Assembly: GCA_020073385.1 (NCBI GenBank)
Contig: JAIQFH010000020.1
Coordinates: 1 to 64,000, forward strand
Source of the DNA: Terriglobia bacterium
GTDB taxonomy: Bacteria; Acidobacteriota; Terriglobia; Terriglobales; Acidobacteriaceae
Direction of reading: 5' to 3'
Length of the DNA: 64,000 nucleotides
A model generated the notes under the pieces. The model was not told the DNA's origin and ran no database searches. It worked only from the letters and a program-made list of their open reading frames with translations. Positions within the stretch are counted from its first letter, which is position 1; each line of letters opens with the position of its first letter. Made by a program: the position numbers and the translations under genes. This document shows, piece by piece, positions 1 through 17,575 of the stretch.

Positions 1-169
1 CGCTCGGCGCTGCAACCGGATAGCTTCTCGTCGGAAACCAAAACACTCAGCAACAATACCCCGCACCAGAAGACGACTGTGGCACAACTGTCTCTGCAAT
101 CCGGCGATCGGCCTCCAAGGCGTCGGAACTCCGCAAACCTTCGCCATACCAAGCCCACCTGCCGGATCT
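1..169. other. Left edge, no supported gene
   Basis: No reading frame here resembles a known family. The minus-strand neighbour (VirB6/TrbL) ends at 170 after losing family resemblance near 225, so this edge may be foreign sequence joined to the truncated gene, or shifted remains of it. Confidence 0.4.
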
Positions 170-808: not shown

Positions 809-845
809 GTTCCATGCCCTCTAGTGTTCTTCTGCTTGGGCTTAC

Positions 846-1724: not shown

Positions 1725-1778
1725 TTGTCTCATCCCTTCGTCGCCGTTGGTTTCGCGATGCCTTACAGCGGTACGGCT

Positions 1779-2078
1779 TTACTGCTGTGCAGCGAGAATC
1801 TCTTTCTGGAGCTGCGCAAGACGGTCCGCCTGCGGCTTACACCGTGCGTCGCGTTCTTTCTTCTTGGCTTCTAGGGCTGCGATCTCTTCTTGAGTCAGTT
1901 TCTTTCCCGTCAGAAGATCCGCCGATCCGGCGGTCTCCGGATCGATACAATCCTTGGCATAGGCCGGGTATTCGGCGTTGTATTGATCCTGCAACTGCTT
2001 CACTTTTGCCGCTTTGCTCTGACAGCCGGCAAGGGTGAGAGTCCACAGAACTAATAAGGAGAGGGCAACGATTCGCAT
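1779..2078 (-). CDS. Small T4SS-associated lipoprotein (TrbK/EexN-like)
   Basis: A 99-residue protein with a lipoprotein signal peptide and lipobox LAGC (Cys near residue 18), then a charged helical tail with two further Cys residues. Small lipoproteins in this place in Trb and VirB operons often act in entry exclusion or envelope anchoring; that role is inferred from position. An upstream ATG at 2093 is in frame, but its first codons form a perfect AGGAGG five bases before the ATG at 2078, so 2078 is the better start. The Shine-Dalgarno lies at the very end of the VirB10 gene, suggesting translational coupling. Confidence 0.7.
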   Translation of the reverse strand: MRIVALSLLVLWTLTLAGCQSKAAKVKQLQDQYNAEYPAYAKDCIDPETAGSADLLTGKKLTQEEIAALEAKKKERDARCKPQADRLAQLQKEILAAQQ

Positions 2079-2089
2079 GGACAGCCTCC

Positions 2090-3406
2090 TCAAAACGTCT
2101 GTGGAATAGTGTGGTTGGAGTACGCAGGAAGAAGCAAGTCCTGCGTGAAATACACTTTCACGCGGTGGCCCTCTCGAATTGTGATGGTGGGCGGTATCTG
2201 TATGAAGCGGTCAAGGATCGTGGTCGCAGACTGGGAAACACTGCCCGCCGCCCCGTTGGTGAACGCTTGGGAACCGCTCGTGGTAATCGCGCCGCCACCC
2301 CGAGTGATCTGGCTTGCTCCAGCAATCACACCCAAAGCTATCGAGGTGCCGAAAATCTGAAGGTAGTGATTGTTGACCTTGCCTTTCAGTCCTTCCTCTC
2401 CGATCTGATCGAGACCTTGAAATTGATCGAGATCGACGGAGTAACCGTCAGGCATAATCAGGCGGTGGAAAACCACGGCCATCCGGCGTTGTTGGCCAAA
2501 GCCCGCCGCTCCAATCTTCTTTGCCTCGCCCAAAACAACCGTTCCCTCAGGAATGATCACGTGTTGATGATCGTGGGAATACAACGGATTTGAGACCAGG
2601 ACTTTGACCGGTCCTGCGGCATCCCCATCCAGGCGATTCATGAGAACCGTATCGAGAACCGAACCCTCGTAGACGAGATAGGGCTGACCGAGGGCTGAAT
2701 CAACATTGGCTTCTAGTGGGCGTTTATAGCCTCCGGATGTGTCCTCCTGTTTTCCTTCGGCTGGTGGGGAGACAAAACTGTTGTTTGTCTGTCGTTCGGC
2801 AGGGCCATATTGGGCGGGCATCGTCTGGCCTTGCTGCTGTTGTTGCGGCGGACCGGCAGAGCGGGAGTACACAAGATTGGAAGCGAAACGGGAGTTGTCA
2901 GCCCGTTCGCGTTCTTTCGCAGCGATCAACTGTGCCTGCTGTTGTACAGGCGTGAGTTGCATCTGCATATTGCCCTGCTGCGCTTGCGCGCAAGGCTGGC
3001 CCGGAACGCACGGGATGGCAACGCCGGTCGGGCCGTAGGCCGCGGCTGCGGAGCGCTGCTGCGGCGTCGCAGATGCGAGTGTCGGATCTGCTGTCGCAGC
3101 AGCGGCCATTGTTGCCTGCTCTTTCTGACGTTCGGCCTGAAGCTGGTTTTTCAACTCCTGCACGTTGCTGTCGGTGTTGTCCTGCAAGGTTGGTTGTGGT
3201 GGTTGCCCTTTCGTGGCAGTCGGCTGTCCAGGCGTCTTCTTACCGGACGAGCTGAAGAGCGCCGCCACAATCACCAGCAAGGCCGCGCCCAGATACACGA
3301 AGGTCTTGAGGTTCTTCTGCAAGACACCCTTTGGCAGTTCGAGGTTGCGGCGCAACGTTGGCTCGGGGTGCGGTTCTGTGTGGGGAGTGAAGGCATTCTC
3401 GGTCAT
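2090..3406 (-). CDS. trbI: TrbI/VirB10 T4SS core-complex protein
   Basis: A 438-residue protein that spans from inner to outer membrane in the T4SS core. It shows the VirB10 plan: a short cytoplasmic N-terminus, one transmembrane helix near residues 33-50 (TFVYLGAALLVIVAALF), a Pro/Gln-rich periplasmic linker to about residue 225, then the conserved beta-domain (YEGSVLDTVLMNRLDGDAAG, VSNPLYSHDHQHVIIPEGT) and the C-terminal IREGHRVKVYFTQDL. Its start overlaps the VirB9 stop by 4 bp (ATGA), so the two are translationally coupled, matching their physical interaction in known systems. Confidence 0.92.
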   Translation of the reverse strand: MTENAFTPHTEPHPEPTLRRNLELPKGVLQKNLKTFVYLGAALLVIVAALFSSSGKKTPGQPTATKGQPPQPTLQDNTDSNVQELKNQLQAERQKEQATMAAAATADPTLASATPQQRSAAAAYGPTGVAIPCVPGQPCAQAQQGNMQMQLTPVQQQAQLIAAKERERADNSRFASNLVYSRSAGPPQQQQQGQTMPAQYGPAERQTNNSFVSPPAEGKQEDTSGGYKRPLEANVDSALGQPYLVYEGSVLDTVLMNRLDGDAAGPVKVLVSNPLYSHDHQHVIIPEGTVVLGEAKKIGAAGFGQQRRMAVVFHRLIMPDGYSVDLDQFQGLDQIGEEGLKGKVNNHYLQIFGTSIALGVIAGASQITRGGGAITTSGSQAFTNGAAGSVSQSATTILDRFIQIPPTITIREGHRVKVYFTQDLLLPAYSNHTIPQTF

Positions 3407-4170
3407 GACGGTGATCCCTTGCGCGTGAATTCCATCCGCTTCTTGCCCAGCTCCACATAGCCGCTGTCCATGATCTTCGGGATGATGTAGGTCCCTTCCC
3501 TCAGGTCATAGGTGACGAGGTTGGGCTTGCCGTCCTTCATTTCGTACACGCTGAACTTTTCAGGCGCGTTGGTCTTGATGTAAGTGAACTTGTCATCGTG
3601 ATAGATCGACTGGATGTTGAAGGGAGACTCGTTCGCTTTGTAGGCATAGTCGAACTTGAGCTGTGTTGGATAGGCGCTTTTGTACTCGTCCACGGCCTGT
3701 TCAACATGCGATTGCAGAGCGGCAAGCTGCTGCCGCGATTGTTCGAGTTGGGCGGCGGGCACGAACTGGGGAGGGCCGCTCGCGGCCACAATCGCAGAAC
3801 GGTCGGCGGGCTCGACGATCACCTTCAGATCAGGCGTCGTCGATGAAGCAGAGATATCCTGGAGGGTGAAACTGTAGATGTTCCCCTTGTCCGTAATGAG
3901 ATTCAAGTTGGAGCTGATGCCTTGCTTCGCCGGATGCACAAAGCAAAAGTTGCCAACCACATCCACGATCCAGAACTCCTTGTCACCCGTGGCGGCTTCC
4001 ATGATTTTCTCGGTGGGGGGTAGTTCGATCAGGGTCGTATATTTCAACTTTGCGCGGATGGGAACGATGTCCTCGGAGTGATACTGCACAGTGCGCGCAG
4101 AGTCTTGGGCAAAAGCACCGAAGGAAGAAACAACCAAAGCGCAATTGACGACGAATTTCAGATGCCGCAT
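3403..4170 (-). CDS. trbG: TrbG/VirB9 T4SS outer-membrane core protein
   Basis: A 255-residue periplasmic protein that pairs with VirB10 in the T4SS core. The chosen start at 4170 follows a GGAGAG ribosome site and gives a clean Sec signal peptide (MRHLKFVVNC..GAFAQ). The mature part has the VirB9 N-terminal beta domain (LIELPPTEKI near residue 45, then GDKEFWIVD) and the C-terminal domain with YDLREGTYIIPKIMDSGYV, characteristic of TrbG. The open frame continues upstream into virB4, but that extension is an antisense-like Arg/Ser-rich stretch and is not used. It lies 10 bp after virB4. Confidence 0.88.
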   Translation of the reverse strand: MRHLKFVVNCALVVSSFGAFAQDSARTVQYHSEDIVPIRAKLKYTTLIELPPTEKIMEAATGDKEFWIVDVVGNFCFVHPAKQGISSNLNLITDKGNIYSFTLQDISASSTTPDLKVIVEPADRSAIVAASGPPQFVPAAQLEQSRQQLAALQSHVEQAVDEYKSAYPTQLKFDYAYKANESPFNIQSIYHDDKFTYIKTNAPEKFSVYEMKDGKPNLVTYDLREGTYIIPKIMDSGYVELGKKRMEFTRKGSPS

Positions 4171-4180
4171 AGAGCTCTCC

Positions 4181-6673
4181 TTAGCGGTTGTCGTTCGAAG
4201 TTGATACGGCCAGCGCGCGCGGCTGGAATGGCCATTCTTCCGCGAGCTGGCGAAGGCCATCCGCAAAACCGTGGCGGTCGAAATACTCCTGCTTCTTGAG
4301 GTTGTCGCGGGCATTGTTGGTTGCCATCCAGTGCGAGACCGAATCGACGTTCAAATGCACTTTCTTTGACGTCTGGGCTTTGCGAATCAGCATTTGGCCC
4401 GGCGGAACAAGGCCGTCGATAAGGTCCAGTTCGGTGTCGTTCAGATGAAACGCTTCCCGGTAAACGTCCCGGTTCATATCCGGGTTGGCGAGGAAGATCT
4501 TTGTCGGACAACTCTCGGCCACTATCGCCAGCATCCCCGACTCCTCAAGCTCTTTGATGGATTGCGTCGCCAGGATCATCGCCGCCTTGTGCTTGCGCCA
4601 GGTCTTCTGCGCCTGCACCACGTAATTGCGGATGGTCTCGTTCTTGATGAAGAGCCACGCTTCATCGAGCAGGAAGAACTTGGAGGTGCCGAGGCTCTTC
4701 GGGTCAGTGATCTCATTCGATGCCCGATGCAAAACATAAAAGAGCAGTGGTTCCAAGACTTCCGGCGCATCGTTCCAGCCGTGGAAATTGAACGTCTGAA
4801 AGCTTTTGAACGAAAGCGTGTCCTCGGCGTTGTCAAAGAGGAAGCCGTATTGTCCACCGCGGGTCCAGCGGTGGAGGCGTTCTTTCAACTCGCCGATGAT
4901 GTTCCCAAAATTCGAGATGGTGCGCTGGTTCGGCTCCAGTACGTAAATCCGCTCGATCGCGTCCCACAATCGGCGTTCCTCCTTGAAGTCGATCCGGTAA
5001 CGTTGCTCGTTACCCTCAATGAGCACGCGGCAGAAGCTGAAGAGAAACTGCAGGTTCTCTTTGGTCTGAGGCAGTGAGAAGGGGTTAATGGTGAAGTCCC
5101 GCGCTTCCTGACCCACATTGAGATACGAGCCCTTGAATATCGTCGTAAGCGACTGGAAGCTGCCGCCGATATCAAAGATGAAAGTCAGCGGCTTGTACTT
5201 CTGCGCGTTCTGCAGCAGAAAAACGCAGAGATAGGACTTGCCACTGCCGGTCATCCCGAGAATTAGCGTATGACCAACGTCGCGGGTATGCAGGTTGAGG
5301 AAGTAGGGCGTGCTGTTGTCGGTTTCGAGCACAGCCAGATACTCGGTGCCGAGATGCGCGTTTGTCTTCTCGCCGGGAAGGATAGTAAACAGAAAAGACA
5401 GATCGGCGTAATTCGTGTTCAGCAGATACAACTTGCGAAGGTTCAGCGCATAGTTGCCGGGCACGGTGGCAAAATAGGCGTTCAGCTGGTTATAGGTTTC
5501 CGCAAACAGATTGCCGTCCGCGTTGGTGAAGACGCCAGTAAATTCCGCCTCGAGTTGATCGAGTTCCGTTCGTGACCGGCCATACAGCACAATCGTGAGC
5601 GAGAAGTCGCCGAGCGATTGACCGTCACCCAGGGCGCGAAGGCAATCCCCAAGATTTTCGATGTCGGCCTGCTTTGACTCGTCCACCAGCACATCGCGTG
5701 GGTTCGTCTTGGTGGTGTCATTGCCCATCTGCGAGACGAATCCCGTCTTCGACATATTGAAGTGGCGGCGGCGCTTGTTCACTTCTTTGCGGGCCTTGTC
5801 CGCGGGGAGCGGCGTCCACTCCGTGACCACATAGAAGTTGGCGGGGATCTTCAACAGCGCGTCCAGTACCAGAGGCCTCGTTTCGGTGATGGCCTCTTTC
5901 ATTGTCAGCACACGGACGATGTGATCGCCTATCCGCAGATGATCGCGTTCCGCTTCGATGTCGGAGTTGACGACCTGATAGTCGAGGAACTGCGTGGACT
6001 GCGGCCGCCCGGCAACACGCCAGTCGTCATAATTCAGCAAACGACGAAAGAACTGGAACTGCCCCTGCTGATTCAGGACCTCGATTTGCATGAGATCCGC
6101 AAGTTGCCGAGCGAACGCCTGCACATGCTGGTCGAGTCGCTGAAGATCGCGCTCGATGTGCGCACGCAAGAGCGTTTTGATGTTGTCATTGGTGAACTGC
6201 GATTTGAGTTCGGCAATGGCGCCTTCTGGGTCGCGCAAGATCCGAGCTAGCGCCGTGCCGATGCCGGTCTTCGACCGGACTCCTTCGAGCAGGATGCAAT
6301 AGAAGATTTCAACCTGATAAAGATGGTCTCGCTTCGCTTCAAAGAACTTCCGCCGTTGGTCGATGGCTGCATCCACAACAGGGTCGTCATACGTTGCGAA
6401 TGGTATGTCCGGGCGATTCGATTTGAAGAGGTACTGGTAAACATGGAAACCTGGGCCAAACGCTTTCAGGGCTGCTTCCAACCGCTTCACTGCATACTCC
6501 TGTTCCGACCGGTCGAGACTTTCGTAGTCCACACCGGAAACACTGAGAACCATGCCTAGATCGCCGCTCTTGGTAAGGAAGGCCGTCTGATTCCAGAAGC
6601 CGTAGAGGTTGATGTGGTCGTTCAGCGCAGCACTTTCTTTCCACGGTTTGATGACCTTGTCGAGGCGCAGCAT
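4181..6673 (-). CDS. trbE: VirB4/TrbE conjugation ATPase
   Basis: An 830-residue cytoplasmic ATPase that energises pilus assembly and transfer. The N-terminal CagE/TrbE/VirB domain covers roughly residues 1-420. The motor domain follows, with Walker A GMTGSGKS near residue 470 and Walker B FFLLDEAWLF near 670, and a later LATQSIKEL motif typical of VirB4 arginine-finger regions. It starts at an ATG seven bases after GGAGG; a GTG directly before it (6676) is possible. The TGA of virB3 overlaps this start. Length is normal for VirB4, so this gene appears intact. Confidence 0.95.
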   Translation of the reverse strand: MLRLDKVIKPWKESAALNDHINLYGFWNQTAFLTKSGDLGMVLSVSGVDYESLDRSEQEYAVKRLEAALKAFGPGFHVYQYLFKSNRPDIPFATYDDPVVDAAIDQRRKFFEAKRDHLYQVEIFYCILLEGVRSKTGIGTALARILRDPEGAIAELKSQFTNDNIKTLLRAHIERDLQRLDQHVQAFARQLADLMQIEVLNQQGQFQFFRRLLNYDDWRVAGRPQSTQFLDYQVVNSDIEAERDHLRIGDHIVRVLTMKEAITETRPLVLDALLKIPANFYVVTEWTPLPADKARKEVNKRRRHFNMSKTGFVSQMGNDTTKTNPRDVLVDESKQADIENLGDCLRALGDGQSLGDFSLTIVLYGRSRTELDQLEAEFTGVFTNADGNLFAETYNQLNAYFATVPGNYALNLRKLYLLNTNYADLSFLFTILPGEKTNAHLGTEYLAVLETDNSTPYFLNLHTRDVGHTLILGMTGSGKSYLCVFLLQNAQKYKPLTFIFDIGGSFQSLTTIFKGSYLNVGQEARDFTINPFSLPQTKENLQFLFSFCRVLIEGNEQRYRIDFKEERRLWDAIERIYVLEPNQRTISNFGNIIGELKERLHRWTRGGQYGFLFDNAEDTLSFKSFQTFNFHGWNDAPEVLEPLLFYVLHRASNEITDPKSLGTSKFFLLDEAWLFIKNETIRNYVVQAQKTWRKHKAAMILATQSIKELEESGMLAIVAESCPTKIFLANPDMNRDVYREAFHLNDTELDLIDGLVPPGQMLIRKAQTSKKVHLNVDSVSHWMATNNARDNLKKQEYFDRHGFADGLRQLAEEWPFQPRALAVSTSNDNR

Positions 6674-6975
6674 CACACTACCTCCACGCGGGGAATTTGC
6701 TGCTTAGCGGCGTCATAGCGCAGCTTGTAGCGTTCGGACTTTTCTAGGATGCGGAGGAATGCCGGATCGCTGTTTGTGACCCAATGGCCGAAGGCAAAGC
6801 CGCCAATGAAGATAGCGATCCCGGCGAGGATGGAATTGAAAAGGTTAAAAGCTCCCACCGCTCCGACGCAGACGAAGTAGAAGAGGGTGCGTTCCACGCC
6901 CAGGTATGTGAGTGGCTTATGCAGGCTCTTGAAGACCCGATTTGTGCGTTGCTTCCGCTGTGCGCTGTCGGACAT
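6673..6975 (-). CDS. trbD: TrbD/VirB3 inner-membrane T4SS protein
   Basis: A 100-residue protein with the compact VirB3 plan: a basic N-terminus (KSLHKPLTYLGVERTLF), two closely spaced transmembrane helices around residues 30-65, and a polar tail with DPAFLRIL near residue 70 that is characteristic of TrbD. It lies between the pilin gene and VirB4, the usual order, and shares its stop with the VirB4 start. In known systems VirB3 works with VirB4 in pilus assembly. Confidence 0.88.
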   Translation of the reverse strand: MSDSAQRKQRTNRVFKSLHKPLTYLGVERTLFYFVCVGAVGAFNLFNSILAGIAIFIGGFAFGHWVTNSDPAFLRILEKSERYKLRYDAAKQQIPRVEVV

Positions 6976-7006
6976 AAGTCCCTCGTCTAAGCAGGACTCA
7001 AGGGCG

Positions 7007-7342
7007 TTACACGCCCCAGAGCCAACTCAGGACATTCACGGCGAGAACCGCAATACCCGTTCCGGCGGCAACGCCGGCGAGCGCCTTTTTTGCACCAGGT
7101 TCGCCGTGCGCGAAGCCGTAGCCGCCGATCACGATGGCGATGAGGCTTGCAACCTTCGCGACCGTTCCTGTGAAGAGTGTTTGTAGCGCGTTAAAGCCCG
7201 TGTCGAAGGGTGAACCCTGTGCCATCGCGGCCACGGGCATGACACAAAGCAGGACGAAAAGAGCGGCGGTTGGACGCGCCCACTTCGAGCGAGGATTGGT
7301 CTCGCTTCGGCGGATGAGATGGACTTGGAAGCAACGTGGCAT
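7007..7342 (-). CDS. trbC: TrbC/VirB2 pilin precursor
   Basis: A 111-residue conjugative pilin precursor. A long basic N-terminus (about 25 residues) precedes a hydrophobic signal helix ending in AMAQG, the likely signal peptidase site. The mature part has two hydrophobic helices around residues 60-105 and ends in WLWGV, as in TrbC/VirB2. The ATG at 7342 lies five bases after GGAGG; an upstream TTG at 7357 is in frame but unnecessary. It is the first gene of the eight-gene minus-strand T4SS run, so the promoter should lie in 7343-7651. Confidence 0.88.
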   Translation of the reverse strand: MPRCFQVHLIRRSETNPRSKWARPTAALFVLLCVMPVAAMAQGSPFDTGFNALQTLFTGTVAKVASLIAIVIGGYGFAHGEPGAKKALAGVAAGTGIAVLAVNVLSWLWGV

Positions 7343-7651
7343 ATGCACCTCCAGCAACAGCTCAAACTGGCTGCTTTTGGCGCAAAGCTAACCTCACTCA
7401 ATCACGCTGTCCAATGAATGTTCGGCGGACAGCCATTCCTGACGGGAATAGCTGGGGAAGATCGGAGTGATTGCTTTTTCGCGCTGCCATCCTAAGGCAG
7501 GATCTAGATAACTGTCTATTTGCCGACCATTCACGAACTGACTGCGGGAGACTGAGTGTAATTCGAGTTGGTGCAAAACTATCGAATCGCACCTAACTTT
7601 CTAATTGCAGATTGTGGATCTTACTTGGAATTGAGCCGGGTGCTCGGACGT
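7343..7651. other. Intergenic region upstream of the T4SS operon
   Basis: About 300 bp between the pilin gene start and the 3' end of the tetR gene. It must hold the promoter for the T4SS run, which reads leftwards, but I cannot point to a convincing -35/-10 pair. No supported coding frame. Confidence 0.4.
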
Positions 7652-8320
7652 CTATCGAGGCGCATGTTCCTTCGGCAGCGGATGAAGTTGCAGGAAGGCG
7701 GCCGCGGCGTCGCGGGCACGTCCCGCGATTTCGCGGGGGTTCGGTCGCTCGGCGACGCCAAGAAGCAGGCTGACCATCAAATCGCCACAGAGCAGCCCGG
7801 CAAACTGCTGGGCAAGTTCGGCAGGACGGCCTGCGAGCAGTCCGGACGCCTGGGCCTGGGCCATGATTTTACGCAAGGCGGTGCGGCTTGCCCCGCGTCC
7901 TATAGAGTTGAGTGTACGCGCCACTTCGGGGGCCTGGACCGCCTCGGCGATCGCCAGTCGGAATACCGCAATGACCGTGGGATCACTTATCTCGCGGACG
8001 AGCTTCGTCCCGAAAGAAACCAGCACCTGCTCTAGGGTCTCGCGATCGCGCAGCACGGGCAGGTCAGCGGGCACGTCAAATCGCTTGGCGCGCTCGCTTA
8101 TGCAGGCGATCAGCGTTTCTTGTTTGTTGCCAACCAGCGCGCAAAGCTCTCGCTTCGAAACGCGCGCGCGCGTCGCGATCTCAAGCGTGCTGGTCGTTGC
8201 GTAGCCGCTCTTCATGAACGCCGCAAAGGCCGCCTCAAGGATGCGCTCGCGCACCGCGGTTTCGTCGCCGCGTTCCTGGCGGTGTTTTGAAGGAGTCACG
8301 ACTGATGGGCCGTCAGTCAT
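7652..8320 (-). CDS. TetR-family transcriptional regulator
   Basis: A 222-residue DNA-binding repressor. The N-terminal TetR helix-turn-helix spans about residues 20-70 (ILEAAFAAFMKSGYATTSTLEIATRARVSK), and the C-terminal ligand domain (RLAIAEAVQAPEVARTLNSI) resembles AefR-type TetR_C domains. A near-perfect 17-bp palindrome, ACTGATGGGCCGTCAGT, covers codons 2-7 at its own 5' end (8301-8317), and two relatives occur at 9524 and 11571. These could be its operators. No efflux pump or enzyme that it would control remains nearby, which fits a decayed region. Confidence 0.85.
   Translation of the reverse strand: MTDGPSVVTPSKHRQERGDETAVRERILEAAFAAFMKSGYATTSTLEIATRARVSKRELCALVGNKQETLIACISERAKRFDVPADLPVLRDRETLEQVLVSFGTKLVREISDPTVIAVFRLAIAEAVQAPEVARTLNSIGRGASRTALRKIMAQAQASGLLAGRPAELAQQFAGLLCGDLMVSLLLGVAERPNPREIAGRARDAAAAFLQLHPLPKEHAPR
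8301..8317. promoter_or_regulatory. 17-bp palindromic box, copy A
   Basis: ACTGATGGGCCGTCAGT, with arms ACTGA/TCAGT around a GGGCC core, preceded by ACG on the plus strand. It overlaps the first codons of the tetR gene. Likely TetR operator by form; inferred. Confidence 0.5.
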
Positions 8321-8356
8321 AGAGAGAGCCGGGAGCTGACATTCGGTTCCGGCTCG

Positions 8357-8758
8357 CTACCTCAAAAAGACTCCCTCGTCTTGCAAGGCTCTCCGTACGG
8401 CAACGACCTCTGGGGCGTTAATCATCAGCACCGCGAGCGTTACCCTACCAATCAGTGTTCGGGCCTTTAACTCGGGCCCGTCCCAGACGAAGTGGTCCGC
8501 CCAGCTGTCGCGTCGAGGATGGAAAAGGCGAACAATCTCGCTGGTGTCAGCATCAAGCCCAGCTACGTTCGGCCCCTTGAAGCGATTGCAATGGATACAG
8601 GCGAGGGCGAGATTTTCAAATTCAGTTTTGCCACCATGTTGTCTTGCAATGATGTGATCGATCTGGAAGGGCGCCGGATGAAAAGCTGAAGGCAACTGAC
8701 AGTATTCACAGCGATCCCCGGCGCGCTCCCAAACCCGGCGGATGAGATCGGCGTTCAA
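8357..8758 (-). CDS. HNH endonuclease
   Basis: A 133-residue HNH nuclease. It has a zinc-binding CEYCQ at residues 17-21, the HNH core DHIIARQHGGKTEFENL around residues 33-48, and the second metal pair CIHCNRFKG around 53-61. These are the full complement of the CxxC-type HNH fold, so it should be active. It starts 9 bp after the stop of a 93-residue protein, and the two are surely one transcript. Compact HNH genes of this kind recur in Acidobacteria and Cyanobacteria next to such a small partner; the function of the pair is not known to me. Confidence 0.9.
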   Translation of the reverse strand: MNADLIRRVWERAGDRCEYCQLPSAFHPAPFQIDHIIARQHGGKTEFENLALACIHCNRFKGPNVAGLDADTSEIVRLFHPRRDSWADHFVWDGPELKARTLIGRVTLAVLMINAPEVVAVRRALQDEGVFLR

Positions 8759-8767
8759 GATGTCTGA

Positions 8768-9049
8768 TTACTGAGTGGGGCGCTGCAAGGCGCTGCGTCC
8801 TTTAGATTGCATGACCGCTAGCAGATTGCTCACGTGGAGGTAACTATCGAGCTCAGCTTGTTCATCAGTGGTCAGTTTGCCTTGCCGAGCCAACTCAGAC
8901 AACTCGTTCATGCGTGCGACATCGCGTTCGCCAAAGCGAATGGACAACAAATACTCGGCTGCGCCGCGCGACAAGGCCCCTTCCTCGACCTGAATCACGC
9001 GGGAGAGAATCGCCGCTTCGGTATTGGGGCTTGTGATTTGCGAACTCAT
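8768..9049 (-). CDS. Conserved small protein preceding the HNH nuclease
   Basis: A 93-residue soluble, helix-rich protein without signal peptide or Cys. Features: VIQVEEGALSRGAAEYLLSI near residues 18-37, then DVARMNELSELARQGKLTTDEQAELDSYLHVSNLLAVMQSKGR. The second half (helical hairpin ending LLAVMQSKxR) is a pattern I recognise from small proteins encoded just before HNH nucleases. It could be a regulator or an inhibitor of the nuclease. Function unknown; the role is inferred only from the tight gene pair. Confidence 0.65.
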   Translation of the reverse strand: MSSQITSPNTEAAILSRVIQVEEGALSRGAAEYLLSIRFGERDVARMNELSELARQGKLTTDEQAELDSYLHVSNLLAVMQSKGRSALQRPTQ

Positions 9050-9570
9050 CTCGGTTTCACCTAGTCAATTGTGCCATCGCCTTCGATTCATGTCACGCCT
9101 ATATGTGCTGGGAGCGAATAGATAGCGAATACGGTTTCGCTGACCGTGGATAGATGAAGGGCTAGCCGTTTCTTTGTCACGAGGACGATCACACCGTTTT
9201 GGGCCCACGTTTCCGGCCGCCGATAATCTGGTGATTGAATCGGCCCACACCAGGCACACAAATGGTCACGAAACTCCGGGGAAGCTCGTTGTTGCGGCTG
9301 TCCGACAGTCAGCCGGCACGATCGCCGCTGCAGAAATTTCGCCGAGGAGAGGGTCAATACAAGATGGGCATTCGAAAACTGAGGATGTGTCGGACCTATA
9401 AGCCCAATTCTATCCGCCGCCGTTTACTGTGGACTGTCATCAAAATACTGCTGATTCCGGAGCCATTGAGCACACTACTTGCGCACTATTGGAGCGTTCA
9501 CAACCACCTTCAGGGGTTTAACGACTGATAGGCCGTAAGTCGAGACCATCCAGCCGGACACGATGTAGCG
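9050..9570. other. Intergenic region, no supported gene
   Basis: About 520 bp between the HNH cassette and the end of hipA. Short open frames exist on both strands but none has a ribosome site with a family-like protein. The only feature I can support is the palindromic box at 9524-9540. Confidence 0.5.
9524..9540. promoter_or_regulatory. 17-bp palindromic box, copy B
   Basis: ACTGATAGGCCGTAAGT, 15 of 17 identical to copy A, again preceded by ACG. It lies in a gene-free stretch 30 bp beyond the hipA stop, so no obvious promoter uses it now. Confidence 0.4.
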
Positions 9571-10818
9571 TCACTTGACCGTGGCGGCGACCGCGAGAAT
9601 CTGCTTGTCGATGGAGGCGCGCTGATCCTTTGGCAGAAGGTCGGCCTGTTCGAGGCCCTTCCACGCAGTGGCGGCGCGCTCCGCCGTCTCGACTGCAATC
9701 TTCCAGAGCGGGCTTGCGGGAATCCGAGCCGTGTCGGCAAAGCGCCGCATCTGGCCTGGCGTGATTTCGGACAAGCTGCGGCTGCCGCCGAAGCTCAGGG
9801 CGAGCTTGTCGTTGGGAATATAAGGAAGCGTCGCCACAAAATCGTATCCCGGCGACAGGGCCGGCTTACGCCGGTCGGGATAGAGGAGTGACCAATTCTT
9901 GAGATGCATATCGGCGTTGCCGATGACAACGGAGAACACAAGGCGGCGGACAAATTCCACGATGGCCTCCTCGCCCGCCTCCGCCCATAGGACAGACGCG
10001 ATGTTGGCATAGCTGTGAAAGCGGTACTTGTCATTAGGAAATTGGCCAAATACTTGCGCGAAATCCTCCATGTGAACGGGATCGCCTCCGGGGACGCGGT
10101 CGAAGCGCTGTACGGCGAGAGCCTTGCTTCCCGGCGCGCGCGCCTCTTCGGGGAGTCCCTTGATCTCCGACACTTCGACGAGGCGGTTATCCGGCACCAC
10201 GATGCCCGCGCGGCGCGCGAGTTCCAGCATCACGAATTCATTCTCGGGGACGGCGGCGAAGCGGGCGGAGGGAAGCTTGACGATCCATGACCCGCCCATG
10301 CCACCGGCGGGGACGGTCAGGCCGCCGGATGCTTCCATGACGGCGGAAAACTTCAACTGCACGCCGGCGAGAGAGAACCGCAGCACGGCCTCGCGCGAGG
10401 GACCATCATCATGGTCGGCGTCGGCATCATCATGATGGGCATCGTCCTCCTTGGCATCGCCATCAAGCGGCGCGATGACAAGCGCTCCAGGGAGATCGGC
10501 GCCGAGGACCGCGAGGAGGAAGAATTCGCGTTCGGGATTCACGGCGGCAAGCTTTGCGAGATACTCGCGCAGGTGCGCTTCGGGAAGCAGGTTCGAAAAG
10601 AACGGCGGCACGCGGCGCGGCACCGGGCGCAGGGCCGTAACGAGCCCGCCGGTGCGGCCCTTGAACGAGAGGCTTAAAGTCGGACGCTGCGGGTCGTCGA
10701 TGTAGTCCTGCTCGAAGGCAAAAATCTGGCGGTCGCCCGCAAGGCGGTTGATGACACCGATCTGGTTCCCGTGCAGGCGCACCGAAAGCGCGTTGAGCTT
10801 CTTGGGATCAAACTTCAT
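9571..10818 (-). CDS. hipA: HipA-family serine/threonine kinase toxin
   Basis: A 415-residue HipA-like toxin kinase. The N-terminal HipA domain covers about residues 10-110 (VRLHGNQIGV, GLVTALRPVPRRVPPFFSNL). A Gly-rich ATP loop follows (LTVPAGGMGGSWIVKLP, near residue 165) with a Lys in the KLP motif, then the catalytic loop VIGNADMHLKNWSLL and the metal-binding SPGYDFVATL. All key kinase residues seem present. In E. coli, HipA phosphorylates glutamyl-tRNA synthetase. The ATG at 10818 overlaps the end of the hipB gene by 11 bp. The frame upstream of it is a low-complexity shadow of hipB. An acidic His/Asp-rich insert near residues 120-140 is unusual. Confidence 0.93.
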   Translation of the reverse strand: MKFDPKKLNALSVRLHGNQIGVINRLAGDRQIFAFEQDYIDDPQRPTLSLSFKGRTGGLVTALRPVPRRVPPFFSNLLPEAHLREYLAKLAAVNPEREFFLLAVLGADLPGALVIAPLDGDAKEDDAHHDDADADHDDGPSREAVLRFSLAGVQLKFSAVMEASGGLTVPAGGMGGSWIVKLPSARFAAVPENEFVMLELARRAGIVVPDNRLVEVSEIKGLPEEARAPGSKALAVQRFDRVPGGDPVHMEDFAQVFGQFPNDKYRFHSYANIASVLWAEAGEEAIVEFVRRLVFSVVIGNADMHLKNWSLLYPDRRKPALSPGYDFVATLPYIPNDKLALSFGGSRSLSEITPGQMRRFADTARIPASPLWKIAVETAERAATAWKGLEQADLLPKDQRASIDKQILAVAATVK

Positions 10819-11182
10819 CGCGCGGCTCCTGCATGCTGTCCTCGTCGCCGTCGGCATAGAGGGAGCGTTCCTCGCCTTCGCCCTTCTGGTCCGGCTGCAG
10901 ATGATCGCGTATGAGCGACTGCACGACGGGGACGAGGGCACGGGGGACCATGAGAAGATCGCGGTCGAGAATACGGACCAGCTCAAGAAGGGTGTCGTAG
11001 CGCGGCACGATCTTGCCGGACTCGATGCCGGAGATGTGCGTCTGGGTTAGCCCGATGCGGCTGGCCAGATCCCTCTGGGTCCAGCCGCGCTTTTCCCGCA
11101 CCTCCTTCAAGGCCCGGCGCATGTCCTCTGGAAGGCCCTCTAGGCGCAGCGGCCTGATATGTTTTGCTATATGTGCATTCAT
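10808..11182 (-). CDS. hipB: HipB-like antitoxin, Xre-family HTH
   Basis: A 124-residue antitoxin and autorepressor. The HTH_3 domain spans about residues 20-75 (ALKEVREKRGWTQRDLASRIGLTQTHISGIESG). The C-terminal tail is acidic and probably disordered, longer than in E. coli HipB (88 residues), and could fold on HipA. The start at 11182 lies 3 bp from a 20-bp palindrome (11186-11205), so binding there would block both transcription and translation. The gene overlaps hipA by 11 bp. Confidence 0.9.
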   Translation of the reverse strand: MNAHIAKHIRPLRLEGLPEDMRRALKEVREKRGWTQRDLASRIGLTQTHISGIESGKIVPRYDTLLELVRILDRDLLMVPRALVPVVQSLIRDHLQPDQKGEGEERSLYADGDEDSMQEPRDEV

Positions 11183-11185
11183 CTT

Positions 11186-11205
11186 TGATATAATATAGCA
11201 TATCA
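11186..11205. promoter_or_regulatory. hipBA operator box 1
   Basis: TGATATAATATAGCATATCA, with TGATAT/ATATCA arms, immediately upstream of the hipB start codon. A second copy lies 65 bp upstream, and a weaker relative sits just inside the gene near 11154-11172. It also contains TATAAT/TATATTA-like -10 sequence. Confidence 0.65.
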
Positions 11206-11250
11206 ACGACAAACAGTAAATATATATTAAAATATATCACGAAATTACAT

Positions 11251-11270
11251 TGATATACTTTAGCATATCA
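11251..11270. promoter_or_regulatory. hipBA operator box 2
   Basis: TGATATACTTTAGCATATCA, 17 of 20 identical to box 1 in the same orientation. The 65 bp start-to-start distance is about six helical turns, compatible with two HipB dimers on one face of the DNA. Confidence 0.6.
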
Positions 11271-11299
11271 GGCAAGGAGGATTAGATGGAAAATGCCAA

Positions 11300-11505
11300 T
11301 TAGAGCCGCATGCCAATTCCCTGCGCGATCGATGAAGTTTGATTGATTTCCAGGGCGGGAGGTCTTCGAGACCTCGGCTCCGAGTTGGGGCCCGAGTTTT
11401 GCCAAAGCGTCAGTGAAGAGCGTGGCCTCGTGGCTGGCGCGAGAGATTGAGACGTAGCCGATACGGGAGTTGAGCAGGTCCGGGTGGACACTGGTATCGG
11501 CGGAC
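11300..11505 (-). pseudogene. C-terminal remnant of a MobF/TraI-family relaxase, frameshifted
   Basis: Read on the minus strand, one frame gives ADTSVHPDLLNSRIGYVSIS followed by RASHEATLFTDALAKLG, the C-terminal helicase-motif region of MobF relaxases, where YVSxSRA is the conserved motif. Near 11362 the frame breaks within a run of Cs. The natural ending, ALEINQTSSIAQGIGMRL and a stop at 11300, continues in the next frame, so one extra base accounts for the break. Upstream of about 11505 the similarity ends, so at least 700 residues are gone. It is the relic of the mobilisation gene that would have gone with the T4SS at 170-7342. Confidence 0.75.
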
Positions 11506-11570
11506 GACCGGGATAATGATCCGGCTCTTAAAAGTGTATGACTGGCAAACCGGACGTTGATCCGAAAACG

Positions 11571-11587
11571 ACTGATGGGCCCTCAGT
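11571..11587. promoter_or_regulatory. 17-bp palindromic box, copy C
   Basis: ACTGATGGGCCCTCAGT, 16 of 17 identical to copy A, and the most symmetric of the three (8 of 8 pairs but one). It lies just upstream of the relaxase remnant in the minus direction, with no intact gene to control. Confidence 0.45.
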
Positions 11588-11653
11588 GGAAGGCAGAGTC
11601 CAGTTAAGAGCTAAGACTCCTCCCTGCAGTCGTGTATTCGGGCATTCATTGAG

Positions 11654-12052
11654 CTACGACAGCAAACGGGCACGGCTGCCCTGTGCTTGCAGTAAAGAAA
11701 CCGCCTTCGAGTCAAACGAGACAAATTCCTCGGCACCCAGCCACTCCCCTTCGTGGGCAATTACGCCATCCGCAAAATCCCCGCCCGCATCGAGTGCGGA
11801 CAAGCCGGCCTCCACTGCGGTTCGATTCATTACCACATTAGGGCTCCTCATGAGGCGGCGAATCGCGTCGGAAACATCGGTCGCTGATTTCCTGTAGCCT
11901 CGACGAAGCACCCACACGAATTCACAAAGAACCGGCACCGGCACGGCAACGAGATCGGCTTCCGCCAAGATCTTTGCCGCTCGCCGGGCTTGATGAAGAT
12001 CATCTTGAACAGCAGCGCGAATGAGCACCTTGGTATCGGCAGTAACTTTCAT
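11654..12052 (-). CDS. vapC: VapC-type PIN-domain toxin
   Basis: A 132-residue PIN RNase toxin. The PIN acidic residues are visible: Asp in TADTKVLIRAA (residues 5-7), Glu in PVLCEFVWVL near 46, and Asp in DFADGVIAHEGEWLG near 97 and FDSKAV near 114. The ATG at 12052 overlaps the antitoxin stop (ATGA), the usual vapBC coupling, so the five codons upstream are not used. The partner belongs to the AbrB/SpoVT fold, unlike that of the second vapBC at 12563. Confidence 0.9.
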   Translation of the reverse strand: MKVTADTKVLIRAAVQDDLHQARRAAKILAEADLVAVPVPVLCEFVWVLRRGYRKSATDVSDAIRRLMRSPNVVMNRTAVEAGLSALDAGGDFADGVIAHEGEWLGAEEFVSFDSKAVSLLQAQGSRARLLS

Positions 12053-12300
12053 TTGGCCTTCGCCCATCCCCGGGTTGCGATCTCGTTCAGCTCATCGATG
12101 GTGAATTTCGGCCCACGCCGCTGTGCCAGACAACCAAAAAAATCGGTAATAGCGCCATCTTGCGCAATCGCTCTCACGACGATCCGGCCGTCAGGCAGTT
12201 TGTCAGCCTCAATCTTTTCCCCGGGACTGACACCAAGATGTTTGAGAAGATCCTGCTTCAATGTGACCTGCCCTTTAGCGGTAATGGTTAGAACGGTCAT
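12049..12300 (-). CDS. vapB: VapB-type AbrB-fold antitoxin
   Basis: An 83-residue antitoxin. The N-terminal swapped-hairpin AbrB/MazE domain is clear (LTITAKGQVTLKQDLLKHLG, then GEKIEADKLPDGRIVVR), followed by a C-terminal toxin-binding tail (GPKFTIDELNEIATRGWAKA). The start follows a perfect AGGAGG at 5 bp. A perfect 20-bp palindrome (12325-12344) lies 25 bp upstream and is a good candidate for the autoregulatory operator. Confidence 0.92.
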   Translation of the reverse strand: MTVLTITAKGQVTLKQDLLKHLGVSPGEKIEADKLPDGRIVVRAIAQDGAITDFFGCLAQRRGPKFTIDELNEIATRGWAKAK

Positions 12301-12324
12301 TCTGCCTCCTGAGCCAGTTTTAGT

Positions 12325-12344
12325 GTAAGGCAATATTGCCTTAC
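12325..12344. promoter_or_regulatory. Perfect 20-bp palindrome upstream of vapB (AbrB type)
   Basis: GTAAGGCAATATTGCCTTAC is identical to its reverse complement. It lies between the vapB ribosome site and the upstream region, the expected place for a VapBC operator. Confidence 0.7.
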
Positions 12345-12534
12345 TATCAAGCTTATCGAAACCTGTGGTTGTGCGCCTCAGACTTAAGGGCCCCGCATTC
12401 GCGATTCGCGAATGGCGAACGCAAAGAGTGGCGATGCACGCCAAGCCGAACAGGCGCCTGACGAAGCCCGACAGATGCTTGGGTCTCCCACGTCATTTGA
12501 TCTGCCATTAATAGTTGCGATCCGCAATTTCCTT

Positions 12535-12553
12535 GTATTACACGCCGTAATAC
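12535..12553. promoter_or_regulatory. Inverted repeat upstream of the RHH antitoxin
   Basis: GTATTAC, five bases, GTAATAC: perfect 7-bp arms, ending 9 bp before the first possible start codon. Spacing and placement fit a ribbon-helix-helix operator. Confidence 0.6.
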
Positions 12554-12562
12554 GGTAAACTC

Positions 12563-12838
12563 ATGGGTATTAGCAATATGGCTTCTCCTCTGACTTTGAG
12601 ACTTGACGCAAAGACCAGAAAGCGGATCGAGCGCATCGCTCGCCGCAGACAAGTCTCCGTCTCCGAAGTGATACGTCTCGCGATCGCAGCGTGGGCGGAG
12701 CAGCAAGAGCCGATCACCGCGCCCTATGAGGCGATTGCTGATTTGATCGGGGTGGCCAATGGCGGGATGCCCGGTCGCTCCACTCAGATGGGCCGCCGAT
12801 TCTCCGAGATCCTCAAGAAGCGGCGGAACCACAAGTGA
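12563..12838 (+). CDS. Ribbon-helix-helix (CopG-like) antitoxin
   Basis: A 91-residue antitoxin with an N-terminal RHH motif (LTLRLDAKTRKRIERIARRR, then SVSEVIRLAIAAWAEQ) and a C-terminal toxin-binding segment (GRRFSEILKKRR). The start may be ATG 12563 or ATG 12578; the protein motif begins right after the second. No good Shine-Dalgarno precedes either, so the message may have a very short leader. The stop overlaps the GTG start of the PIN toxin gene by 4 bp (GTGA). Confidence 0.85.
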   Translation: MGISNMASPLTLRLDAKTRKRIERIARRRQVSVSEVIRLAIAAWAEQQEPITAPYEAIADLIGVANGGMPGRSTQMGRRFSEILKKRRNHK

Positions 12839-13239
12839 TCCTCATCGACGCTGGACCACTTGTGGCGCTGGTCGATGCTGACGATCAGTATCACGAGAAG
12901 TGCGTCGATTGCTTGAAGAGCTTGCGAGAGCCCTTGGTCACCGTGTGGCCTCCCCTCGTCGAAGCCGTCTATTTGCTAGGGGATCTTCCACACGCCCAGG
13001 AAGCTCTGTGGGAGATGTTGGCGCGAGGAGCTGTGCGACTCCTCACCCTCGACCTGGTAGACATACCCCGCATACGAGAGCTCATGATCAAATATGCCGA
13101 CCGCCCGATGGATCTCGCGGACGCGGCACTGGTCAGAGTGGCTGAGCGAGAAGGCATCAGGAGGATCTTCACAGTGGACCGCAGCGATTTCATGGTCTAT
13201 CGCCTTCACGGACGGATCGGTCTTGCAATCGTCCCATAG
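12835..13239 (+). CDS. VapC-type PIN-domain toxin, second copy
   Basis: A 134-residue PIN RNase toxin starting at GTG. PIN residues: Asp in ILIDAGPLVALVDADDQYH (residue 5), Glu in PPLVEAVYLL (near 44), Asp in MDLADAALVRVAE (near 97-100), and TVDRSDF near 118. It is only distantly similar to the first VapC and its partner is an RHH rather than an AbrB protein, so this is an independent module, not a duplication. Confidence 0.92.
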   Translation: MILIDAGPLVALVDADDQYHEKCVDCLKSLREPLVTVWPPLVEAVYLLGDLPHAQEALWEMLARGAVRLLTLDLVDIPRIRELMIKYADRPMDLADAALVRVAEREGIRRIFTVDRSDFMVYRLHGRIGLAIVP

Positions 13240-14000
13240 GAGAACTCGGGAATACGGGTCACCGTTGACCCGATCAGCTCGACCCAGTCGGGTTGCTCAG
13301 CCGTCTTTGGCTGGTGGTCGGTCGATTGCGCTAACTTCTTCAGGCGGGGAGTGCGGAAAAAAAGGCCGAAGCGTACCGGGAAGAGCATGACATTCTGGGT
13401 AAGCTCATGCCCATGTGGCAACGCCAGTAGATGGCTTTTGGATGTTTCTGCAATCAGCGCATTCCCACGTTTTTCACTGGCGTAAAGAACCAACTCCTTC
13501 ATTTTCGATGGCTTTTCACAGCACGCGCGTAGCCTTTCGGGCACCTGTTACTATTGGATCGGGGATTGCGGAATGTAGCCGGCCGCAAACCAACGTTCTC
13601 AATTTAGCCCCGATGGGCGCTTACAAGTAACTTGTTTCCCCCAGGGCCATGCGCCTTTCCTCTTTCTTCGCTGCTTCGCGTCGGCATCGCTCCTCGATAG
13701 ACAGAACTGCTTCTGGGGAAGTCTTGCCGAACTGTTTGGAGTAGAGCTCCTCGATAAACTGCGGCAAGGGCAGCTTCCATCTCGCCTCAAGCCCCACTGC
13801 CGAAAAATAGATCGAGTTTTTTATCGATCAACCTAGCAAACCTGTGGGATACTTACGTCGCTATGTGGCGTCAGCAGGGACCCAGAACGAAAACATTTTC
13901 GTACAATAAACGTACAATGGATTAGGCAATGTGGCCGTTTTCGCCCATGTGGCACTTCCTAGAATCAATAACTTACGTGCTGTCAACATAGTGATTAGTC
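13240..14000. other. Mostly non-coding junction region
   Basis: A 760-bp stretch between the second vapC and the attachment-site-like sequence. It holds a small minus-strand frame (13621-13797, listed separately) and two direct copies of CGTACAAT spaced 14 bp (start to start) around 13899-13920, which could be recombinase arm sites. I find no integrase gene here. Confidence 0.4.
13621..13797 (-). CDS. Small unknown protein or C-terminal gene fragment
   Basis: A 58-codon frame starting at GTG gives a protein-like sequence: LEARWKLPLPQFIEELYSKQ, then a charged coiled helix (IEERCRREAAKKEERRMALG). The frame is open for ten more codons upstream (to 13827), so it may be the tail of a broken gene. 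No clear ribosome site precedes the GTG. I do not recognise the family. Residue composition is unlike the shadow frames around it, which is the reason for listing it. Confidence 0.3.
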   Translation of the reverse strand: MGLEARWKLPLPQFIEELYSKQFGKTSPEAVLSIEERCRREAAKKEERRMALGETSYL

Positions 14001-14021
14001 CGACTCCCGCCGCCTCCACCA
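14001..14021 (+). other. tmRNA-like 3' end fragment, probable att site
   Basis: The last 20 bases are GACTCCCGCCGCCTCCACCA. Read as a tmRNA 3' end this gives T-loop ending CGACT, T-stem CCCGC, acceptor strand CGCCTCC, discriminator A and CCA. The 5' half of the T-arm is absent (ATTAG where GCGGG is needed), so this is not a whole gene. It is the form left at the far end of an element that integrated into ssrA. The intact gene would then lie left of the window. Confidence 0.65.
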
Positions 14022-14187
14022 GTCTTACCAAAGAACGTCAAAAAAAGCGCGGGGAACCTGTGGCAAGCCTTTTCCTCCCCACCTCAACGCCTAAAACAGT
14101 CGAAGCGCTCTGAATCGCAACCCGCCGGACGCATCTGACGGTGCATCCACATGCCGACTAAAATCGTCGCCTGGGTGTAAATATACC

Positions 14188-14217
14188 TTGACACGTATAT
14201 GCCTTGTAGCGTATATA
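14188..14217 (+). promoter_or_regulatory. Sigma70-type promoter of the arsR-like gene
   Basis: TTGACA (14188-14193), 18 bases, TATATA (14212-14217). The predicted start of transcription falls at about 14224, on the GTG start codon, so the message is probably leaderless. Two CGTATAT copies (14194 and 14210) lie within and could be the repressor site. Confidence 0.65.
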
Positions 14218-14223
14218 CAGAGC

Positions 14224-14589
14224 GTGCAATCCGTATTTGAAATCATTGCTGAGCCGAACCGCCGTGCGATATTGAGCCTCCTGGTCTCGTCCAAGCAGTC
14301 GGTGGGAGAGATCGAGCGTCAACTTCGGATGCCGCAGCCGACCGTCTCAAAGCACCTGCGCGTGCTGCGCGACGCCGGTTTCGTGGAATCCACGGTCGAC
14401 GCACAGCGCCGTCTCTATCGGCTGAAACCAGAACCATTTCAGGAGGTGGATTCCTGGCTGGATCAGTTCCGCCGGTTCTGGTCCGTTCACATCGATGCTC
14501 TCGAACGCCACCTCGACCGCATGGATCAATCAACACAGACGAAAGGGAAGACAAAGGAGAAGACGACGCGGCCCAAACCGCGAACGTGA
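14224..14589 (+). CDS. ArsR-family HTH regulator
   Basis: A 121-residue winged-helix regulator of the ArsR/SmtB type that usually precedes SRPBCC or VOC genes. The HTH is clear (VFEIIAEPNRRAILSLLVSS near residue 4, GEIERQLRMPQPTVSKHLRV near 31). No metal-binding CxC is seen. The C-terminus includes FWSVHIDALERHLDRMDQ and a Lys-rich tail. The GTG at 14224 is chosen because the promoter places the transcript start there; the in-frame TTG at 14188 is the -35 box itself. It leads a run of co-directional genes to 16272. Confidence 0.88.
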   Translation: MQSVFEIIAEPNRRAILSLLVSSKQSVGEIERQLRMPQPTVSKHLRVLRDAGFVESTVDAQRRLYRLKPEPFQEVDSWLDQFRRFWSVHIDALERHLDRMDQSTQTKGKTKEKTTRPKPRT

Positions 14590-14604
14590 TAAAGGAGAAG
14601 TGAA

Positions 14605-14997
14605 ATGAAAATCAAAGTGACCAGCCTATACGTGGACGACCAGGACAAGGCCTTGCGCTTCTATACCGAGGTACTCGGCTTTGCCAAGAAAGTCGATTTC
14701 AGTCAGGGCCCATATCGCTGGCTGACCGTGGCCTCGCCCGAGGAACCGGACGGCACTGAACTGCAACTCGCTCTGAACAACAACCCCGCAGCCAAAACGT
14801 ATCAGCAGGCGATGTTTCAACAGAACCAGCCCGCGGCCATGTTTTTCACCGACGACCTGCAGGCCGATTACGAGCGCATGAAGGCGCGGGGGGCCCAGTT
14901 CACCATGCCACCCACGGACGTGACGGCATCCAAGATCGCCATGGTGAACGACACCTGCGGCAATCTCATTCAGGTGACGCAGCTGAAGCACTCGTAG
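14605..14997 (+). CDS. VOC-family (glyoxalase-like) protein
   Basis: A 130-residue vicinal-oxygen-chelate protein built from two beta-alpha-beta-beta-beta units: VTSLYVDDQDKALRFYTEVL at residues 4-23 and AAMFFTDDLQADYERMKARG at about 72-91, then NDTCGNLIQVTQL. Such proteins bind metals and act as lyases, dioxygenases or resistance proteins. A strong AAAGGAG lies 6 bp before the ATG, and the gene follows arsR by 15 bp. The substrate cannot be read from sequence. Confidence 0.9.
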   Translation: MKIKVTSLYVDDQDKALRFYTEVLGFAKKVDFSQGPYRWLTVASPEEPDGTELQLALNNNPAAKTYQQAMFQQNQPAAMFFTDDLQADYERMKARGAQFTMPPTDVTASKIAMVNDTCGNLIQVTQLKHS

Positions 14998-15006
14998 GAG
15001 AAATGG

Positions 15007-15234
15007 ATGACCGATCGCGAGCAGTACGCAATGTCTCTGGCCAGCAGGGCGCAGTTGTGCCGGTTCTGGTCCGCTCATGTGGATGCTCTCGAGCGCCACC
15101 TCTCGGCCAACACGTGGGCACTGATGGCCTCCACGGTGCTAGTGATCGCGTATCCGATTGCACGGATTGTGATTCCCGCCATACTCCATGGCATTGTGCC
15201 CGATGTAGTTCGGAACGTCCTCAACTTGATCTGA
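15007..15234 (+). CDS. Small membrane protein with an ArsR-tail-like N-terminus
   Basis: A 75-residue protein. Residues 18-32 (CRFWSAHVDALERHL) nearly repeat the C-terminal segment of the ArsR protein 590 bp upstream, at both protein and DNA level. The rest is a hydrophobic stretch (TWALMASTVLVIAYPIARIV) and an amphipathic end. GGAGAA precedes the start by 4-8 bp and the gene lies 9 bp after the VOC gene, so it is probably translated. Function unknown. Confidence 0.6.
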   Translation: MTDREQYAMSLASRAQLCRFWSAHVDALERHLSANTWALMASTVLVIAYPIARIVIPAILHGIVPDVVRNVLNLI

Positions 15235-15342
15235 GTTCGACTGGGGCACTGCGGCAAAGATCGTACGCGCATCGCCAGTCGCTCGTGAGAGTCGTCGAGT
15301 TGAGCTCACCATCTGGCAGGCTATTAAGACAAGGAGAAGAAG

Positions 15343-15894
15343 ATGACCGAGCAAGCGCAATATATACCGGGTCCGGCCAGCGGAGCGCAGGTGCGTAAGG
15401 ACGGAGATAAGTGGACGCTGATTCTCGTTCGACAATTGCGCCACTCGCCGGAAAAAGTGTGGGAGGCGCTGACGGATCCGGCACAACTGCGCGAGTGGGC
15501 TCCCTTTGTGGTCGACGGCAGCCTGGGCACGGTTGGAGCGGTGAATATGACTTGGGTGGGGAATCCGCAGTCGTTGGAGACGAGGGTGACGCGAGCCGAT
15601 GCTCCCAGGCTGCTGGAGTACGGCGACATCCGGTGGGAACTCGAAGCCGCGGGCAGCGGTACGCGCCTGACGCTGTGGCACAGCATCGATCGCTGCTTCG
15701 TCTCATGGGGCGCTGCGGGCTGGCATATCTGCTTCGACGTCCTGGATCGCTTCCTCGAGGATGATCCCATCGGACGCATCGCCGGCGCTGACGCCATGAA
15801 GTTCAACGGCTGGCAGCGGCTGGTCGCGGAATATGCCAGGCAGTTCGGCGCTGAAACACCGGGCTGGTCGCCTCAGCCGGCTCAAAAGTCGTGA
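15343..15894 (+). CDS. SRPBCC (AHSA1-like) domain protein
   Basis: A 183-residue protein with the START/Bet v1-like AHSA1 fold: QLRHSPEKVWEALTDPAQLR near residues 31-50 and the helix-grip strands RWELEAAGSGTRLTLWHSID around 97-116, followed by a long C-terminal helix with GWQRLVAEYARQFG. Such proteins typically bind a hydrophobic ligand and are often regulated by the neighbouring ArsR gene; that link is known for this gene arrangement. AAGGAGAAGAAG precedes the ATG. Confidence 0.88.
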   Translation: MTEQAQYIPGPASGAQVRKDGDKWTLILVRQLRHSPEKVWEALTDPAQLREWAPFVVDGSLGTVGAVNMTWVGNPQSLETRVTRADAPRLLEYGDIRWELEAAGSGTRLTLWHSIDRCFVSWGAAGWHICFDVLDRFLEDDPIGRIAGADAMKFNGWQRLVAEYARQFGAETPGWSPQPAQKS

Positions 15895-15941
15895 GTCGAG
15901 GGGATCAGAACAATGCACCAACCACGCTCCCGGAGGCGACC

Positions 15942-16272: not shown

Positions 16273-16414
16273 TCTTCGAGTGTAGGGGCGCACGCCTCGT
16301 CCGACCCGCGGAGCGAAGCGACGCGTGAGGGTCGCTGCGGATGACGCGGCAGCATCAGGTGGTGGTCAATCTTGAATCGTTTTCCTGCAAGCCCTTCGAT
16401 TGTGAGAGAGAACT

Positions 16415-17407: not shown

Positions 17408-17437
17408 TCGAGCAACCCTGGAACGCCCCACCGGTGG

Positions 17438-17466
17438 CCACTCAAGCCCGGTTTTGGCTTGAGTGG
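17438..17466. repeat. Palindromic repeat, family 1 copy a
   Basis: CCACTCAAGCC and GGCTTGAGTGG form a perfect 11-bp stem with a 7-base loop (CGGTTTT). It occurs again at 18902-18932. There is no T run, so it is a dispersed hairpin rather than a standard terminator. Confidence 0.7.
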
Positions 17467-17575
17467 GGATCTTCACGACCGGAAAAGGCGATTTCGCGTT
17501 GTAACATCGAATGCAACATCAACTGATGGTTGCACGGATCCCAGAACACTCCCGAGTTCTCCGCGAAGAGGAACT

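Follow-up and report, generated by a model that had tools for sequence, protein, structure and literature searches.

A stretch of 21 nucleotides within the 64,000-nt window analysed here (C77:1-64000, window base 1 being the first base of the contig) reads as the 3' end of a tmRNA gene, which raises the question of how it came to lie there and what it bounds. The sequence GACTCCCGCCGCCTCCACCA occupies window positions 14002-14021, and a C at 14001 extends the exact match with ssrA to 21 nt; bases 14001-14021 equal the last 21 nt of this genome's ssrA (C68:87257-87277). From the T-loop on, 23 of 24 nt agree, the window having GTCCGA where ssrA has GTTCGA, and the 5' strand of the T-arm is missing. 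Since neither ARAGORN nor Rfam detects a tRNA or tmRNA in the window, the 21 nt represent a fragment. An earlier note, made from the letters of the window, had described these bases as one half of a T-arm with acceptor strand and CCA, a description that the ssrA match bears out, and had proposed looking for a full ssrA with an identical end, which is present but on a separate contig, C68.

14001-14021, forward strand: attR core, the displaced ssrA 3' end (T-loop to CCA) and right boundary of the element; exact 21-nt ssrA match, only two exact copies in the genome

These two copies constitute the att direct repeats that delimit the element, as in an ICE. Searching the whole 8.2-Mb genome for the 20-mer with up to 2 mismatches returned exact matches at ssrA (C68:87258-87277) and in the window only, plus one further match with two mismatches, and the reversed-pattern control returned 0 matches in the same genome. 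By arithmetic, about 4e-6 chance matches to a 21-mer are expected in 16.5 Mb (both strands). Additionally, the 21-mer (up to 1 mismatch) is present in 34 of the 45 genomes of the genus, against 0 of 45 for the control. On these sequence comparisons, chance is excluded as the source of the match. A tRNA 3' end was also considered, as the tRNA-Ala (cgc) gene has CTCCACCAGTCTT in common with the window; that match covers only 13 nt, compared with 21 exact nt and 23 of 24 for ssrA, and the left end of the element sits directly on ssrA. The tRNA origin was thus rejected, and the probability that the fragment is a chance 21-mer or a tRNA 3' end rather than a piece of ssrA is negligible.

The left end of the element lies on C68, where the single ssrA of this genome is intact, with CCA, at C68:86908-87277. 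A tyrosine recombinase (Phage_integrase PF00589, 403 aa) begins 88 bp past ssrA, so that a site-specific recombinase stands at one end of the element, as is characteristic of an ICE. The region after ssrA also encodes a TrwC relaxase with a helicase domain (978 aa; PF08751, E 4e-83), likewise an ICE hallmark, and Pfam identifies an ArdC-type antirestriction protein, a TrwB/VirD4 coupling protein (TrwB PF10412), a RepB-type primase, VirB11, and VirB8. From the translations, we further recognised SSB, the 3' half of virB6, a LysR regulator, sigma-factor-like genes, IS transposases, and a toxin-antitoxin pair. Mobile-element genes run from the integrase to the end of the contig, which terminates within virB6.

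The same gene links C68 to the window. Specifically, virB6 is split by a 1,680-bp IS, of which C56 has a copy; one end of this IS makes up the final 249 bp of C68 (C68:114029-114277), and its opposite end makes up the first 229 bp of the window (1-229). The IS end occupies the first 225-229 bp of the window.

1-229, no strand assigned: IS end, with the 4-bp target duplication CTAA/TTAG, from a 1,680-bp IS that has a 458-aa transposase frame; identical to the C56 copy, and the point at which the assembly breaks
170-808, reverse strand: 5' half of virB6 (TrbL/VirB6, PF04610), broken by the IS; the 3' half lies at the C68 end, and the homologue in congener G004 is uninterrupted

In G004 (locus L040), C68 aligns with the uninterrupted virB6 up to 15653 and the window from 15656, and the overlap of the two on this gene is 4 bp and corresponds to the target duplication CTAA/TTAG. 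Because the virB6 halves overlap by 4 bp on G004 and the C56 copy of the IS supplies the middle, C68 and the window are neighbours across one IS insertion. Measured from the end of ssrA to window position 14021, the element is 42,223 bp long, counting 1,202 bp of the IS absent from both contigs. From this alignment, not from reads, we infer that both contig ends belong to one ICE of about 42.2 kb, which extends from ssrA to 14021. Since the IS interrupts virB6, the T4SS is probably non-functional and conjugation probably defective in this genome.

The part of the element within the window continues the T4SS cluster and ends in a block of variable genes.

846-1733, reverse strand: gene in the VirB5 position, assigned by its place in the T4SS cluster; no Pfam match
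2090-3406, reverse strand: VirB10/TrbI (PF03743, E 8e-49)
3403-4314, reverse strand: VirB9/CagX (PF03524, E 2e-36)
4181-6676, reverse strand: VirB4 ATPase (PF19044 and PF03135), 95% identical in G004
6673-6975, reverse strand: VirB3 (PF05101)
7007-7357, reverse strand: VirB2/TrbC pilin (PF04956)
7472-13815, no strand assigned: variable cargo by the right end, comprising TetR, an HNH nuclease, HipBA, PIN-type toxin-antitoxin pairs, and a relaxase fragment (Pfam)
11358-11504, reverse strand: relaxase relic matching residues 910-958 of the C68 TrwC relaxase (tblastn, 49% identity, E 1e-10)

Together, C68 and the window hold the coupling protein TrwB and a VirB4-type T4SS, as found in ICEs, with VirB2, VirB3, VirB4, VirB6, VirB8, VirB9, VirB10, and VirB11, VirB6 being interrupted by the IS. 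The DNA left of the fragment had been called mobile-element-like on account of a T4SS, a relaxase relic, and toxin-antitoxins; the first and last of these stand, and the relic turns out to be a side fragment, the intact TrwC lying on C68. A PIN-type toxin-antitoxin block of 794 bp occurs twice in the element, at window 11572-12365 and at C68:96117-96910, with 97.7% identity.

The relic and this repeated block are what fused elements could leave, and tandem arrays at the ssrA site are common in relatives, which would suit a composite of accreted elements in which the fragment closes a distinct, older tandem element on the right, whereas the C68 ICE has its end elsewhere. The genome, however, is without a third exact att copy, and its T4SS genes form a single set, divided between two contigs and collinear with that of G004, which makes such a composite very improbable.

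Two further sequence features accompany the att core at the right end.

13900-13923, forward strand: predicted right arm-type integrase site CGTACAATAAACGTACAATGGATT, made up of two CGTACAAT direct repeats; an identical 24-mer closely follows the end of ssrA on C68
13958-13979, forward strand: conserved right-end box resembling GAATCAATAACTTACGTG, some 36 bp upstream of the 24-nt att core; sequence and spacing kept across congener right ends

The 24-bp motif is identical at both ends: on C68 it follows the ssrA end at a distance of about 46 bp, and in the window it lies 98 bp to the left of the 24-nt att core. At the right ends in congeners, the arm motif starts 98 bp and the GAATCAATAACTTACGTG-like box 36 bp upstream of the core, and about 15 loci have exactly such spacing. 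Judged by sequence and placement, the motif is a likely arm-type and the box a candidate core-proximal integrase site.

The same element was observed in relatives. Both G001 and G004 have the same left end together with the integrase, located after ssrA in G001 (integrase 94% identical in amino acids) and after an att core in G004 (92%); in G004, the same T4SS also ends at the same right end. Between the T4SS and the right end, G004 has about 0.8 kb, compared with 6.3 kb of cargo in the window. Across the class, 46 of 299 genomes (this one included) have an integrase match at E <1e-60. The order ssrA, integrase, and ssrA-end copy 25-65 kb further on is seen in G305 and G339, whose contigs are whole chromosomes, and on the large contigs of G136 and G264; in G305, the ssrA-end copy is followed by a second integrase gene fragment, that is, a tandem insertion. 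Right ends and arrays of the same family also lie on contigs apart from ssrA in G011 (C43 and C27) and G349 (C32 and C160), and the downstream flank of ssrA itself has no recognised element end in these two genomes. In G009, locus L045 (C411:5014-5159) has two ssrA-end copies 125 bp apart, without the right-end motifs.

The sequence to the right of 14021 had been taken for chromosomal, which is plausible: the cluster at 14178-15900 (ArsR, glyoxalase, SRPBCC) is found in many congeners at about 75-88% identity, yet at a distance from ssrA in every case, and no two of the 11 genomes examined have the same upstream neighbour. Comparison of the right flank of the window with 60 relatives, and with the downstream flank of ssrA in each of them, gave no clean empty site, the two flanks never being adjacent in congeners. 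Some congeners have an apparently unoccupied ssrA (e.g., G034, G012, G021, and G008), and the sequence downstream differs among them; gene order in congeners is shuffled both around ssrA and around the right-flank cluster. The comparison was extended to other genera for which large contigs exist, where the flanks to the right of occupied sites did not match the ssrA flanks of unoccupied genomes. Because the cluster is always away from ssrA and its neighbours vary, synteny neither proves nor disproves that this flank once adjoined ssrA, and the case for the ICE therefore rests on the contig linkage. Further into the flank, two short repeats of about 47 bp (16280-16327 and 17430-17476) recur many times in this genome or among congeners.

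From the identity and uniqueness of the ends, the gene content, the contig linkage, and the conserved end sequences, we conclude with high confidence that window 1-14021 makes up the right-hand third of an ICE, some 42.2 kb in length, that has inserted at the ssrA 3' end. Integration into ssrA, as the earlier note had it, is supported by the identical ssrA end, the integrase adjoining ssrA, and the linkage of the fragment to it via one interrupted virB6. In the mechanism that we propose, the tyrosine recombinase just inside the left end would recombine the T-loop-to-CCA sequence on a circular form of the element with the identical stretch of ssrA; the gene would be restored by the copy brought in, and the displaced original 3' end would stay at 14001-14021 as attR. 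This integrase probably uses the paired CGTACAAT repeats as its arm sites, one pair lying 98 bp to the left of the attR core and the other some 46 bp to the right of attL, and the TrwC-type relaxase, the coupling protein, and the VirB-type T4SS would serve transfer.

The same right end also bounds elements without a tyrosine recombinase (PF00589 search) in G014, G285, G004, and G033, all of them flanked by ssrA-end copies and carrying the same right-end motifs. These cargo elements (1.8-25 kb) carry mostly metabolic genes and often have a second left-end type, about ATAACTCGTTTATTATCAATTGTTTA...TTTCGTACAATA.

L038 (G014:C23): two cargo elements in tandem, 4.6 and 5.3 kb; amidohydrolase, S9 peptidase, serine hydrolase (from translations)
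L154-L155 (G285:C10:1221781-1246469): cargo element, 24.7 kb; TonB-receptor-like proteins, sugar kinases, glycoside hydrolases (from translations)
L039-L040 (G004:C2:61368-81387): cargo element directly after the ICE, 20 kb; TonB-receptor-like proteins, sugar kinases, glycoside hydrolases (from translations)
L041 (G033:C139): cargo element, 1.8 kb

We tentatively suggest that the ssrA site in this genus may be a cassette array, in which the T4SS-bearing ICE provides integrase and transfer functions, either in trans or by accretion, and tandem cargo free of tyrosine recombinases (about 1-25 kb, including whole sugar-degradation loci) shares the arm sites and the att core and moves with the ICE. 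The ICE itself is ordinary in kind, a fresh example of a well-known element type, and the tandem cargo elements that share its ends are the more interesting part. That the same ends flank metabolic loci lacking a tyrosine recombinase points to a possible way for soil acidobacteria to acquire sugar-utilisation genes. The boundaries of a conjugative element are settled here in a group whose gene exchange is poorly described, and the precise end sequences (att core, arm motif, and right-end box at fixed spacing) can find further elements. A search of the literature on ssrA elements or ICEs in Acidobacteria found no title or abstract describing such an element.

Cargo bounded by partial copies of RNA genes, in some cases without an integrase of its own, is known from tycheposons and other helper-dependent or cis-mobilisable elements; the difference is that the ends here match those of an adjacent T4SS-bearing ICE, by which we propose that the cargo may be mobilised. 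The Islander database collects genomic islands and ICEs that tyrosine integrases have placed in tRNA and tmRNA genes (PMC4383910), and the present element resembles these islands in the integrase beside the restored gene, the displaced 3' fragment at the far end, and the T-loop-to-CCA identity block; nothing categorical separates it from them, the particulars here being an acidobacterial host and a VirB-type T4SS. The closest precedent for the cargo arrays is provided by the ssrA-specific genomic islands of Dehalococcoides, which are arranged in tandem with a 20-bp repeat, many of them without integration genes, and which rely on a serine recombinase (DsiB, CcrB-like) and are described as mobilizable, though not themselves conjugating (PMC3146451). 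Assignment to this class was considered and set aside, as the integrase here belongs to the tyrosine family PF00589 and not to the serine recombinases (DsiB/DsiA); in contrast to the Dehalococcoides islands, the present element encodes both a tyrosine recombinase and a T4SS.
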